Shown: positions 50,246-54,108 of the stretch, in pieces
Numbering within the stretch: the stretch's first letter is position 1
Layout of the letters: each line of letters begins with the position of its first letter
Assembly (NCBI RefSeq): GCF_002355635.1
Contig: NZ_AP017559.1
Span: forward strand, 1 to 64,000
Length of the DNA: 64,000 bases
Origin: Halopenitus persicus
GTDB lineage: Archaea > Halobacteriota > Halobacteria > Halobacteriales > Haloferacaceae
Direction of reading: 5' to 3'
The notes under the pieces: model-generated
Seen by the model: the letters and a program-made list of their open reading frames with translations, nothing else
The model's database searches: none
Told to the model about the DNA's origin: nothing
Program-made: the position numbers and the translations under genes

Positions 50246-50810
50246 CTTGGTTATGAATTATAGATAATTCGTGATAAGACTTCTGGCAATGGGTCGGAAC
50301 TCGCAACCAATCCAATACTCGCAGAGAGACAGGTGCTTTCAGCGCCCCAACCCCAGGGGAAGCGCCGTCGTGAGGTGTTTGTAGCATTCGTGCTTCACCG
50401 ACGGCGGCGGGTTACTTCAATTTGGTCGTGATTATTGGGGTAATCAGGACCAACTTAATATACGTCGAATATGCCGCAAAACACAGGTACAAGCCCTGAA
50501 GTCTCTCTATCTGTGATTATAAATTATATACCGCTATACAGAATATGTGCTAGCCAAGTTACTGTGTCAAAAAACGCATCCCCGAGGAAATCGGCTTGAA
50601 ATTGGGAGACTGAGTCAAGATCCACTCTGCTGCTTGCTCGCTCGCTGCTGCGGGCTGTGCTATCATTAAGAACGAGACTCCACCTGCACAAATTGAGTGA
50701 TAAGTACAGCTCGGGTCCGTTCTATCAATCCTCTCTATGAATGAATCGCTAGTTGACTCGATCGCCCTTTACCACTGTCCGAGGCGGTCTCTGTCACATA
50801 AGCCTATAAC
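50246..50810. other. Intergenic region upstream of the partition locus
   Basis: About 565 bases without a gene, AT-rich around 50440-50560. No RNA gene recognised. It must hold the promoter of the HTH/PIN pair. Confidence 0.4.
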
Positions 50811-50815
50811 GTCAC

Positions 50816-51048
50816 CCTGTAACAAGTGCCCATAACGTACATCTGTTACAGAATCCTATAACAGACATCTGTTACAGATACTATATAGAATCTAAACCTC
50901 GCATCTGTTATTGATAATCTAGCAATTCAACACAGACATCTAGTACAGATAATCGAAACAGATATTCGTTACAGACGATCTAGCCACATCCAATACCGCA
51001 ATCCAGAAGGGTTATAGAAATCTGTAACAGATGTCTGTAACAGACATC
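50816..51048. repeat. Iteron array upstream of parA
   Basis: Eight copies of a motif close to ACATCTGTTACAGA or its reverse: 50816-50826, 50839-50852, 50865-50878, 50901-50914 (degenerate), 50936-50949, 50959-50975, 51020-51032 and 51032-51048. The core CTGTTACAG is nearly palindromic. The last two abut and touch the first possible parA start. Likely a partition (parS) or autoregulatory operator array, or an iteron origin. Spacing is irregular (23-45 bases), which rules out CRISPR. Confidence 0.8.
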
Positions 51049-51102
51049 CATCCCGAACGTCTGACACAGATTTATGTTATGGGAAGTGGAATATCGAGTC
51101 GT

Positions 51103-52098
51103 ATGATCACGGCTGTTGTCTACTCGGAATCGGGCGGAACGTACAAAACCACCATGACTGCCAACATTGCGGTCGCGTTAGAGCGAATGGGCCAAAGAAC
51201 CCTTGTACTGGATCTCGATCCACAGGAAGGGAATCTGACCAGCCTTTTTGACGTCGGTGCGCACCGGAATGATCCGGACGCAGACAATCTGGTCAAGCAC
51301 ATCCTCGATATGCCGGATGGGAACTTCCAGGATCTAATTGAAACGACGGCCGAAGGCGTCGACATCATCCCAAGTCACGATATGCTTGGTGACTTCACGT
51401 CGAATCTGGAACAGAAAATCTCCTACGAGACAGGGATGAAGAATATGAGTCGCGAAGAGTACCCCCGGTACGAACTGCTGTACGATCTACTCTGGAACGA
51501 GCAAAAGTTACACGAGGAGTACGATGCAGTTCTAATCGATCCAAACGCACGGGCTGAAGACTTGCTATACAATGCAATCTACGCGCTACGCACGCTCGTC
51601 GCGCCGGTCAAGCCAGCCGGAAAGGGTAATCTGAGCTTGGAAGGACTAGAGGAACTCGTCGGGAATATGGAGAGTCAATTGGATATCGAGATCGGACTGT
51701 CCTGTGTCGTCCCATCAGGTGTGGGTCAAACGAATGCCCACCAGCAATACCAACAACAGTTCGAGGACACCGAGGCATTTGCCACCCCGGTCACCATCGG
51801 GAATCGAGAAAGCCTTATGGATGCTATGTGGGAGGCCAGAGGGTCAGCATTCAAGGTGATCGAAGAGCGATGGAAAACCTTCGAGAAAGATGGCAAGATG
51901 GTCAGTGAACCCGGCCAACGACGAGTGCGTGATAGAGAAATCGAGACGCTACAGAAATTGTATGAACTCGCTTGGTTCATCGCGACCGAGACGTTCGACG
52001 CCGACGTCGATCCAGTATTGGAGCTGGATATTCGGGATCACGAGAAGAAGATCATCAACCTCCGAGAGGCTGACACAACGGAGGTGACAACTGTATGA
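51103..52098 (+). CDS. parA: ParA-family partition ATPase
   Basis: 331 aa from MITAVVYSESGG (51103); in-frame ATGs at 51031 and 51082 are possible, but the first lies inside the iterons. Deviant Walker A SESGGTYKTTMTANI, Walker A' LVLDLDPQEGNLT, and VLIDPNARAEDL. Segregates the replicon together with the small downstream protein and probably the iterons. Confidence 0.92.
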   Translation: MITAVVYSESGGTYKTTMTANIAVALERMGQRTLVLDLDPQEGNLTSLFDVGAHRNDPDADNLVKHILDMPDGNFQDLIETTAEGVDIIPSHDMLGDFTSNLEQKISYETGMKNMSREEYPRYELLYDLLWNEQKLHEEYDAVLIDPNARAEDLLYNAIYALRTLVAPVKPAGKGNLSLEGLEELVGNMESQLDIEIGLSCVVPSGVGQTNAHQQYQQQFEDTEAFATPVTIGNRESLMDAMWEARGSAFKVIEERWKTFEKDGKMVSEPGQRRVRDREIETLQKLYELAWFIATETFDADVDPVLELDIRDHEKKIINLREADTTEVTTV

Positions 52099-52538
52099 GC
52101 AATTTCAAATCCGGCTCGGGAAATCTTGATTTCGGAGAGGGAGACGAAACTGATGGGGAAGACAAGCCCCCTGTCGAAACGACGGAGACGCAAACGGAGA
52201 AGGAAAAGTCCGAAGCAAAACCGACGGGACAGACCACCCAAACCTCGTCAGTCTCAAGTACTACAGAAGAGTCAACAAGCGATTCTCCAGTCGAGGAATA
52301 CCCATACTTCGTCCGGCGGAACAACGTCGGCGACGAACGCGACACACGACTCGAGATCCATGTTCGAGACCAGATCGCAGAACAAGAAGCTGAGTTCCGA
52401 AATAAGCTTGCCAACCAGCTCGGAGTGAACGAGGTCTCAAAAACGGACGCTCGAGAGTTCGCCCTTCTCGCCGCGTTTCACCATCCCGAGCGTGTCGCGC
52501 AACTGATGCAGGACGAAGGATTTGGTTCCCTCGGTTGA
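52095..52538 (+). CDS. Partition partner protein (ParB-analogue), acidic
   Basis: 147 aa, coupled to parA by an ATGA overlap. An acidic, Thr/Ser-rich disordered N-terminus (about 70 residues) and a helical C-terminal part with EIHVRDQIAEQEAEFRNKL, SKTDAREFALLAAFHHPE. No ParB nuclease-like motif; probably the DNA-binding adaptor typical of haloarchaeal parA operons. Confidence 0.75.
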   Translation: MSNFKSGSGNLDFGEGDETDGEDKPPVETTETQTEKEKSEAKPTGQTTQTSSVSSTTEESTSDSPVEEYPYFVRRNNVGDERDTRLEIHVRDQIAEQEAEFRNKLANQLGVNEVSKTDAREFALLAAFHHPERVAQLMQDEGFGSLG

Positions 52539-52878: not shown

Positions 52879-54108
52879 CTACTCGCTCACGGCTGACGCC
52901 GTTCGCTCCTTGAGGGTAGGGCTTCCTGCTTCCACGACACGCTTTGCAGATACGGGTGTATCCACAGGGAGCGCAGTCTCCACAGGCATTGATTCGGAGT
53001 ATCCCACACCTACTTCTTCGAGACCGCGAGAAAGAATATTCCACGCCGCATTCGCGTCCCTATCCGCCTCGAACCCACACGAGGGGCACGAGTGTTCACG
53101 AACCCACAGCGGTTTGTCTGTCTTGACGCCACAGGACGCACACTCTTTCGTCGTATCTTTCGGATCAACTGCGGCGAAGTGCGTGCCTTCGCGCTCACAC
53201 TTGTATTTGAGCATCCCAAGGAATGTCCCCCACGCCGCGCCTGCCCGGTTTCGGGAGTTGCCCGTCAGTTCGACCAGTCCCTTCGCGTCCAAGGCCTCAA
53301 CCGCCACGAGGTCGTACTCGGTGGCGTAGTAGTTCGAGAGTTTGTGCAAGAAGTCTCGCCGCTTGCGCTTCAGGTCGGCGTGACGTTCGGCCACGACCTG
53401 CCGTTGTTTCTCCCAATTCGCAGAGCCGTGTTCCTTCCGCGAGAGATTGCGTTGGGCACGTTCCAACCGCTCGCGCTCGTCGGAGAAGTCCGGTGACTCG
53501 ACAGCGGTTCCATCCGTATCGTGGGCGTACTTGAGAATCCCTACGTCGATACCAACGACTTTCTCGGGCGTCTCTGGTTTCTCAGGCGTGTCTTCGTCCA
53601 CGTCGATGCCGAACGTGGCGAACCACTCGCCCGTGGGTTCTTGTTTGACCGTGACCTGTTTGATGGTCGCGTTCTTGGGGATGTCTCGGTGGAGGTGAAT
53701 CGGAACCTCACCGATTTTGCTCAACCACAACACGGGCCGACCACTCGTATTCTTGAGTTTGAAGCCGGACTGGTTGTAGGTGAGCGACCGATACTCCCGA
53801 GGTGGTTTCCACTTGAGCATTCCCACGGCGCGTCCGTTCTCCTTCTGCGCTTTGAGCGTGGAGAGATTGTCGTAGACCCGCTTGACGACCATCTGCAACA
53901 CTTTTGAGTGAACGCCAGTCAGGTCGCCCCACCACGTTTTGAGGTCGGGGAGTGTGCCCTGTACCTCGTAGCGAGCAGGAATGTCGTCTGCCTCGTTGAG
54001 CAGGTAGAGGACGTGATTGTACAGTTGTCTACAAGTATCGACTTGGTGTAGAAGTGTCTCGGTGAGGGTGTCTGACGGGTTGAGTCGATACTTGTAGTTG
54101 TAGTGCAT
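52879..54108 (-). CDS. tnpB: TnpB (IS200/IS605-family OrfB) RNA-guided nuclease
   Basis: 409 aa. N-terminal helix region DTCRQLYNHVLYLLNEAD. RuvC residues: VVGIDVGILKYA (D), DLVAVEALDAKGL (E) and ADRDANAAWNI (D). Zinc knuckles CASCGVKTDKP and CPSCGF between the last two. All three catalytic residues are present, so nuclease activity is plausible. No TnpA gene is near; the element is of the IS1341 type and depends on help in trans. Confidence 0.93.
   Translation of the reverse strand: MHYNYKYRLNPSDTLTETLLHQVDTCRQLYNHVLYLLNEADDIPARYEVQGTLPDLKTWWGDLTGVHSKVLQMVVKRVYDNLSTLKAQKENGRAVGMLKWKPPREYRSLTYNQSGFKLKNTSGRPVLWLSKIGEVPIHLHRDIPKNATIKQVTVKQEPTGEWFATFGIDVDEDTPEKPETPEKVVGIDVGILKYAHDTDGTAVESPDFSDERERLERAQRNLSRKEHGSANWEKQRQVVAERHADLKRKRRDFLHKLSNYYATEYDLVAVEALDAKGLVELTGNSRNRAGAAWGTFLGMLKYKCEREGTHFAAVDPKDTTKECASCGVKTDKPLWVREHSCPSCGFEADRDANAAWNILSRGLEEVGVGYSESMPVETALPVDTPVSAKRVVEAGSPTLKERTASAVSE

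Follow-up and report, generated by a model that had tools for sequence, protein, structure and literature searches.

The window analyzed here, the whole stretch of 64,000 nucleotides from Halopenitus persicus, contains a two-gene par operon that sits on contig C2. This contig, of 138,020 bp, has three Orc1/Cdc6 genes that exceed the family cut-off, of which one is split, and it thus looks like a megaplasmid. The first gene of the operon, parA (51103..52098, forward strand), encodes 331 amino acids from its conserved start, among them the Walker A sequence SGGTYKTT with S10 at the signature-lysine position, and K174 (codon 51622-51624). The second gene (52095..52538, forward strand), whose start codon overlaps the stop codon of parA and which is single-copy in the genome, encodes the predicted centromere-binding partner, a protein of 147 amino acids comprising an N-terminal motif (FKSGSGNLDF), an acidic linker, and a C-terminal domain that begins near residue 69 (52299-52535). 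Just 3' of the operon lies a TnpB-like ORF (52879-54108, reverse strand), identified by eye from sequence. Upstream of parA, at 50790..51083 (given without strand), is an array of 13-bp units in three blocks that is conserved across loci and forms the predicted parS/operator.

Judged from conservation, the most likely start of parA is ATG 51103 (MITAVVY), which matches the start position of close ParA relatives and lies at a spacing of 27 nt from a TATA-like TTTAT. An earlier reading made from the sequence alone (hereafter the sequence-only reading) had the array end on the first possible parA start codon; that codon, ATG 51031, is instead located between two exact array units and is therefore unlikely to be the start of the gene.

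Array of 13-bp units upstream of parA

Each unit of the array consists of an 11-bp near-palindrome, TCTGTWACAGA, plus 2 bp. Between 50816 and 51048, where eight near-palindromic iterons had been noted in the sequence-only reading, we found eight 11-mers with at most two mismatches to TCTGTWACAGA (50842, 50855, 50868, 50904, 50939, 50965, 51021, and 51034), four of them exact (50842, 50868, 51021, and 51034); the site at 50816 has three mismatches. When region 50784-51090 was compared with 5000 first-order Markov sequences, it contained 10 sites with two or fewer mismatches (Markov mean 0.14, maximum 2) and 32 lag-13 windows in which at least 8 of 11 bases are equal (Markov mean 0.66, maximum 15), so that the eight iterons are confirmed at a density far above the Markov expectation. 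Across the genome (3,105,937 bp), exact copies of TCTGTWACAGA are present only in the array, where there are four, and copies with one mismatch occur six times outside the array, one of them within parA at 51405. A site matrix was derived from other loci (135 sites, none from the window) and applied with a cut-off at the 99.9th percentile; of the 74 sites that it identified on the scanned strand of the 64-kb window, 11 lie between 50790 and 51060. The sites at 50790 and 51060 also exceed this cut-off, so the array is longer than 50816-51048, and weak units extend to 51083.

Three blocks make up the 13-bp lattice (50790-50878, 50904 to about 50975, and 51008 to about 51083), and the phase shifts from one block to the next. 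The left block contains a core at 50842..50878, in which CCTATAACAGA at 50855 is flanked by the exact units 50842 and 50868, and it also contains the longest lattice run, of seven positions (50790-50868), with 50842, 50855, and 50868 scoring high, 50790 and 50816 moderate, and 50803 and 50829 weak. The middle block (50904..50975) consists of degenerate units at 50904, 50939, 50952, and 50965. The core of the right block (51021..51044) is composed of the exact units 51021 and 51034 and encloses ATG 51031, the first in-frame ATG.

Conservation of the array and of its pitch

The sequence-only reading had proposed a search for the motif on other plasmids with this type of parA, and 13-bp arrays were indeed present before the same parA type in nearly all of the close and divergent loci that we examined. 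Small partner relatives, close or distant, were found in 106 of the 195 genomes of the order. The scan of named genomes returned 49 loci, four of which had no parA match (L077, L079, L080, and L081), and hosts of the close loci include Halorubrum, Haloarcula, Halococcus, Haladaptatus, Natrinema, and Halobacterium. In the other 45 loci, which were not dereplicated, the 26.9 kb before parA contain 150 sites with at most one mismatch; the 189.6 kb after the parA start contain 8, with 0.51 expected by shuffling. Gaps of up to 78 bp between sites in these loci are multiples of 13 in 55 of 63 cases. Three or more sites with at most one mismatch were identified in 24 of the 45 loci, and none in L043 and L050; in L050, as in L041, the ParA match begins at residue 34, so the start is misplaced. 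When the close loci were dereplicated at 93% ParA identity, at least three sites with two or fewer mismatches were present in 29 of the 30 that remained.

The relative from Halobacterium salinarum NRC-1 (L089, pNRC200 184711-186101; VNG_RS11340, beside ParA VNG_RS11335), whose locus has an array of its own, directly adjoins the gas-vesicle gene cluster, and a par locus of haloarchaeal type (L036) is found in a record titled Candidatus Nealsonbacteria MAG, which is probably a mis-binned haloarchaeal contig.

A divergent set comprised 67 ParA/partner loci, 7 from plasmid records and 60 from distant places in the genome scan. The parA-partner arrangement is kept in nearly all of them (no partner was found for L128), and the start of the partner is offset from the end of parA by -4, -1, or 0 in most. 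In the 350-bp stretch whose 3' end lies 15 bp upstream of parA, the 13-bp lag was detected in 62 of the 65 divergent loci with sufficient upstream sequence, the exceptions being L136, L138, and L140, and control lags of 11, 12, 14, 15, and 17 were detected in 4-17 of the 65. In the stretch of equal length that stops 46 bp short of parA, and with no locus dropped, all 46 close loci and 60 of the 65 divergent ones had the lag, which was absent from L115, L132, L136, L138, and L140.

For comparisons of array word and ParA, we used a reduced set of 106 loci (43 close and 63 divergent), from which L041, L050, L078, L094, L128, L134, and L138 were dropped because the start was misplaced, the partner was missing or broken, the available sequence was too short, or the pair was aberrant. 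After dereplication of this set, whose dropped members include one locus without the lag (L138), the 13-bp lag was present in 30 of 30 close and 50 of 51 divergent loci, and the other lags tested between 8 and 18 in 0-5 of the 30 and 2-14 of the 51. TCTGTWACAGA with at most one mismatch occurs 86 times in the dereplicated close set and not once in the 17.9 kb of the divergent set.

A second class of haloarchaeal ParA with a 9-bp pitch

A second class of ParA was represented by the 30 loci returned (L241-L270), all 30 of which have an ordinary KGGxGK motif with the signature lysine. A downstream ORF was assigned by rule in 28 loci, of which two (L243 and L260) probably do not encode the partner; many partners of this class begin with MSDDRAxRxRxRR, and their N-termini are often rich in arginine. 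Upstream of these parA genes, lags of 9, 18, and 27 were found in 20, 15, and 13 of 29 loci, respectively, and a lag of 13 in 6 of 29. The partners differ from those of the window's class, in which K.[GP] is present within the first 22 residues in 110 of 112 proteins, versus 1 of 28 (L262) in the second class; under a stricter KxG rule the counts are 110 of 112 versus 0 of 28, the two window-class exceptions being L138 and L134, the latter with a start that is probably wrong. At E ≤ 1e-3, a profile made from C-terminal domains of the window's class matched 112 of 112 partners of its own class and 0 of 26 of the second class (best 0.66). That dissimilar partners are accompanied by a 9-bp pitch indicates that pitch goes with partner class.

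Correspondence between array word and partner

The array words, as read from tables of 8-mers, differ by clade and include ATAGCTATA, ATCTTAGAT, ATTAGGT, TTTGTAACAAA, and others. Within the 106 loci, pairs whose partner C-terminal domains are 50-95% identical share a mean of 18.5-28.7 array 8-mers; below 50% partner identity the number is 4.3-5.2, and 3.6-4.0 for shuffled sequences. At a ParA identity of 70-80%, where loci were not dereplicated and many pairs probably fall within the window's clade, the number of shared 8-mers was 3.5-4.0 for the nine pairs whose partners are less than 40% identical, 12.3 for seven pairs at 40-50%, and 17.6-30.2 for the 408 pairs with a partner identity of 50% or above. 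One pair runs against this trend (L109/L099; ParA identity 0.72, partner identity 0.40, 20 shared 8-mers), and outside the window's clade the contrast at a ParA identity of 0.65-0.8 is smaller (5.8 versus 9.2-10.5). The partial rank correlations for 81 dereplicated loci were 0.23 for partner given ParA and 0.26 for ParA given partner, neither of which was reached in 500 permutations. For the 51 loci outside the window's clade, they were 0.24 for the partner (0 of 500 permutations) and 0.14 for ParA (1 of 500). By these measures of sequence similarity, in which pairs are not independent, the word changes with the partner clade and the 13-bp pitch is mostly constant; the partner matters at fixed ParA identity, ParA identity adds to it, and the two effects are not cleanly separable.

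The array had been put forward as a possible centromere in the sequence-only reading, and the comparisons lend support to that candidate, as the array is kept before this parA at a conserved pitch, its word varies with the partner clade, and the second class has another pitch, of 9; on the same grounds the array is very probably the binding site of the partner. Its base composition might suggest an origin of replication, in which the units would be iterons for an initiator and would stand before parA by chance: the iterons lie in AT-richer DNA (37-40% GC in 100-bp steps over 50800-51100, versus a window average of 55%, although 50500-50600 is also at 39%), and the contig carries the three Orc1/Cdc6 genes described above. 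However, the word changes with the partner of ParA, the nearest Orc1 gene on the replicon is 12.6 kb away, and a tblastn search with one Orc1 query of flanks of up to 3 kb gave a match in only 6 of 49 loci. We therefore regard an origin as very improbable.

ParA and the partner protein

The product of parA is a ParA-family P-loop ATPase (Pfam AAA_31, E 1.3e-19; CbiA, E 1.7e-13). Its Walker A motif occupies residues 10-17 from the conserved start, which leaves no room for an N-terminal DNA-binding domain. All 106 ParAs counted lack the lysine that is the signature of the deviant Walker A motif (Ala in 54 and Ser in 52), and all 106 have a lysine at the position of residue 174 of the window's protein, a position occupied mostly by Thr in the second class (26 of 30). 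In a profile alignment based on 11 members, K174 is opposite the STKG lysine of McdA (PDB 6non and 6noo). The STKG lysine is reported to take the place of the signature lysine in McdA. We also considered that the lysine of the partner's KxG motif supplies the missing signature lysine in trans, and found this less likely given the conserved K174 within ParA itself. Type 1 beta-McdA is described in passages of two papers (PMC9178275, PMC8262871) as being without the signature lysine. A viral origin was considered and rejected: in phage records, ParA matches were distant only (15 records, all below 60% identity), and scans of IMG/VR found no partner relatives.

Searches with the whole 147-residue partner returned nothing of note in Pfam, NCBIfam, or, by sequence, the PDB. 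When its C-terminal domain was searched together with 45 relatives, no ParB family was among the matches listed from Pfam, NCBIfam, and PHROGs, which agrees with the view in the sequence-only reading that the partner has no visible ParB fold. Weak matches of single members among the 46 C-terminal domains to unrelated models (at best NF041551, YlcI/YnfO, 0.0031, and PHROG 21729, 0.0033) were not used, nor were a VapB_antitoxin match of one member at 0.055 and the two matches of a PDB profile search with the C-terminal domains (0.092 and 0.74). In PLSDB plasmids, many partner genes carry the label acyl-CoA dehydrogenase, which looks like a propagated misannotation.

Among the 46 aligned C-terminal domains, the hydrophobic fraction is 0.98 at positions 88 and 90 and 0.76 at position 89, flanked by 0.11 at position 87 and 0.00 at position 91, and the segments that follow position 91 are helical and contain the invariant residues D118 and E121. 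From this pattern, the domain may be a strand followed by two helices, as in a ribbon-helix-helix. AlphaFold predicted helices only, both for the whole partner, in which one helix extends over residues 78-109 with a mean pLDDT of 84 over the proposed strand (81-90), and for the C-terminal domain alone, with a mean pLDDT of 53 for residues 78-87 and 76 for residues 88-97; such single-chain predictions cannot form an intermolecular ribbon. A continuous helix over the proposed strand is argued against by Pro at position 87 in 12 of 46 domains and at position 92 in 6 of 46, and by a gap at position 86 in 21 of 46. Foldseek and VIA-align found no significant match; the hits, which reached at best an E of 3.5 and a Z of 4.0 and were mostly histone folds, were given no weight. 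The acidic linker was predicted with low confidence and is thus probably disordered.

Promoter box preceding parA

A promoter box, GTCTGAC-N5-TTTAT (51059..51075, forward strand; TTTAT at 51071-51075), overlaps the last iteron-like site, TCTGACACAGA (51060-51070). We did not retain this site, at -43, as a sure iteron because it coincides with the GTCTGAC box, which also precedes arrays with other words. Among the 46 close loci, 35 have TCTGAC between -40 and -46 relative to parA, as do 45 of the 67 divergent ones; in the close loci L041 and L050 it is at -17 owing to their misplaced start. In the second class, 9 of the 30 loci have it no more than 60 nt from the start.

In the same genome, GTCTGACN5TTTAT has three exact copies, located before parA, at C1:875551, and at C1:2252815, the last of which lies 42 nt before a coiled-coil gene that is followed by genes for SMC (Pfam SMC_N, 1.5e-62) and ScpA (7.6e-11). 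The 59 genomes of the order that were searched contain 140 exact copies of the box versus 5 of a reversed control pattern. We examined 60 of these 140 copies, a selection made by hand that omitted several known par loci. Sixteen precede a relative of the coiled-coil gene (phmmer), with an SMC-like ORF following it in 15 by eye, and two more (L199 and L205) are SMC-like by eye; six precede a ParA, four are bactofilin-like (one scanned, Pfam 2.4e-10), and one is MinD/ParA-like (L234), with nine having no ORF by rule and 22 no assigned target. The start is 40-46 nt from the box in 29 of the 51 copies with an ORF, the choice of ORF having slightly favored that distance. Part of the recurrence of the box at smc is simple orthology within the order. 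Proteins of 53-55 amino acids that appear RHH-like by eye, with no Pfam match at 0.001, are encoded behind the same box in two places (L198:111-269; L204:1948-2112, reverse strand).

Among the matches listed from the open-licence literature, none dealt with the centromere of a haloarchaeal plasmid or with the GTCTGAC box. In passages of one study, deletion of cdrS in H. salinarum changes the expression of sojA, sojB, and sojE, there called par-family paralogs (PMC7439475), and CdrS of H. volcanii has a motif (PMC8406309).

Since the box adjoining the array is common to host genes, the array might be read by a host DNA-binding protein and not by the partner. Such a factor would not be expected to follow the partner, whereas the words differ across the plasmids of the order and there is one pitch per partner class, and we find a host reader scarcely probable. 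For an array read by the partner, the box can be combined with the features above in a joint reading that we advance tentatively: the two par classes may carry a host segregation promoter, about 42 nt before the start, that is shared with chromosomal smc-scpA, to which the window's class would add a fixed 13-bp pitch, a freely changing word as recognition code, and an McdA-like moved lysine in ParA. If this is true, plasmid partition and chromosome condensation would be switched on by one host regulator, and the changing words at fixed pitch would keep co-resident plasmids apart.

Predicted centromere and proposed mechanism

We consider it highly likely, on the evidence of sequence, that 50790-51083 serves the 138-kb replicon as its centromere (parS) and at the same time acts as operator for the parA operon, the units being bound by dimers of the 147-residue partner. 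In the mechanism that we propose, partner dimers would bind the 13-bp palindromes side by side and so coat the array, their C-terminal domains reading the DNA, most likely as a ribbon-helix-helix. By way of the acidic linker, the conserved KxG motif at the N-terminus would reach ParA and stimulate its ATPase, by analogy with the tail of ParG, and nucleoid-bound ParA would move the coated plasmid. Because the array runs into the promoter, its coating should also repress parA and the partner gene.

This overlap with the promoter would equally suit an array that is an operator only, through which the partner represses its own operon and with the centromere located elsewhere, as repressors also bind repeated palindromes. 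The units, however, reach some 300 bp upstream, which is beyond the needs of a promoter, and exact copies are found nowhere else in the genome. Moreover, passages on the known systems describe centromere sites of pSM19035 that overlap promoters and a ParG that acts at both centromere and operator (PMC9499535, PMC7308502). An exclusive operator thus appears unlikely. As regards the centromere, passages on pSM19035 report that four or more contiguous repeats are needed for efficient activation of ParA (PMC9499535); if this rule holds here, the left block at 50790-50868, with its lattice run of seven positions, would be the functional core.

The array and its partner would provide a candidate centromere and a likely predicted reader for a widespread family of haloarchaeal replicons. 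Since Halobacterium salinarum NRC-1, a model organism, has a member of this family on its pNRC200, direct testing is possible, and the diversity of words at one pitch constitutes a natural set for deriving the DNA-recognition rules of the partners and for predicting plasmid incompatibility.

Comparison with known partition systems

Unlike ParABS systems with an HTH/CTPase ParB, the operon described here has a partner for which no ParB domain was among the matches listed. The AspA-ParB-ParA system of the Sulfolobus plasmid pNOB8 is likewise an archaeal plasmid partition cassette with a ParA, as described in passages of PMC5120986; it comprises three genes including a chimaeric ParB, whereas here there are two, with no ParB family among the matches listed. 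In the secondary replicons of Deinococcus radiodurans, a parS-like array of direct repeats upstream of parAB helps to maintain the replicon, according to the abstract of PMC7671480. These arrays are bacterial, and the likeness considered is one of placement and function. Archaeal SegAB of the Sulfolobales, as presented in passages of PMC12284271, resembles our system in combining a ParA with a small RHH protein, a fold that is putative for the partner here, and in the 13-bp palindrome that this protein reads, with sites before segA. The SegB sites (TCTAGASTCTAGA) are scattered over the chromosome, whereas exact copies of TCTGTWACAGA are confined to one tandem plasmid array.

The ParA itself is similar to that of the carboxysome McdAB system (beta type 1), with Ser at the signature-lysine position (52 of 106 here; Ala in 54) and the STKG lysine opposite K174; unlike in McdAB, the cargo here would be a plasmid. 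We know of no relation between the partner and McdB. Type Ib ParAs are not known to have an N-terminal HTH, and the present ParA is likewise without an N-terminal DNA-binding extension, with the gene of a small adaptor directly 3' of parA as in type Ib. Passages on type Ib ParABS (pSM19035 delta-omega; TP228 ParF-ParG-parH) describe two further likenesses, the pairing of ParA with a small adaptor and a short-repeat array that overlaps the promoter, as well as a flexible N-terminal tail of the adaptor (PMC9499535, PMC7308502); in our system, binding of the array by the adaptor is predicted. In contrast to type Ib, the unit here is a 13-bp palindrome in place of 7-bp non-palindromic repeats or degenerate tetramers, and the adaptor matches no model of Pfam, NCBIfam, or PHROGs. 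The system would thus work like a type Ib partition system, but with a ParA that lacks the canonical ATPase signature lysine.
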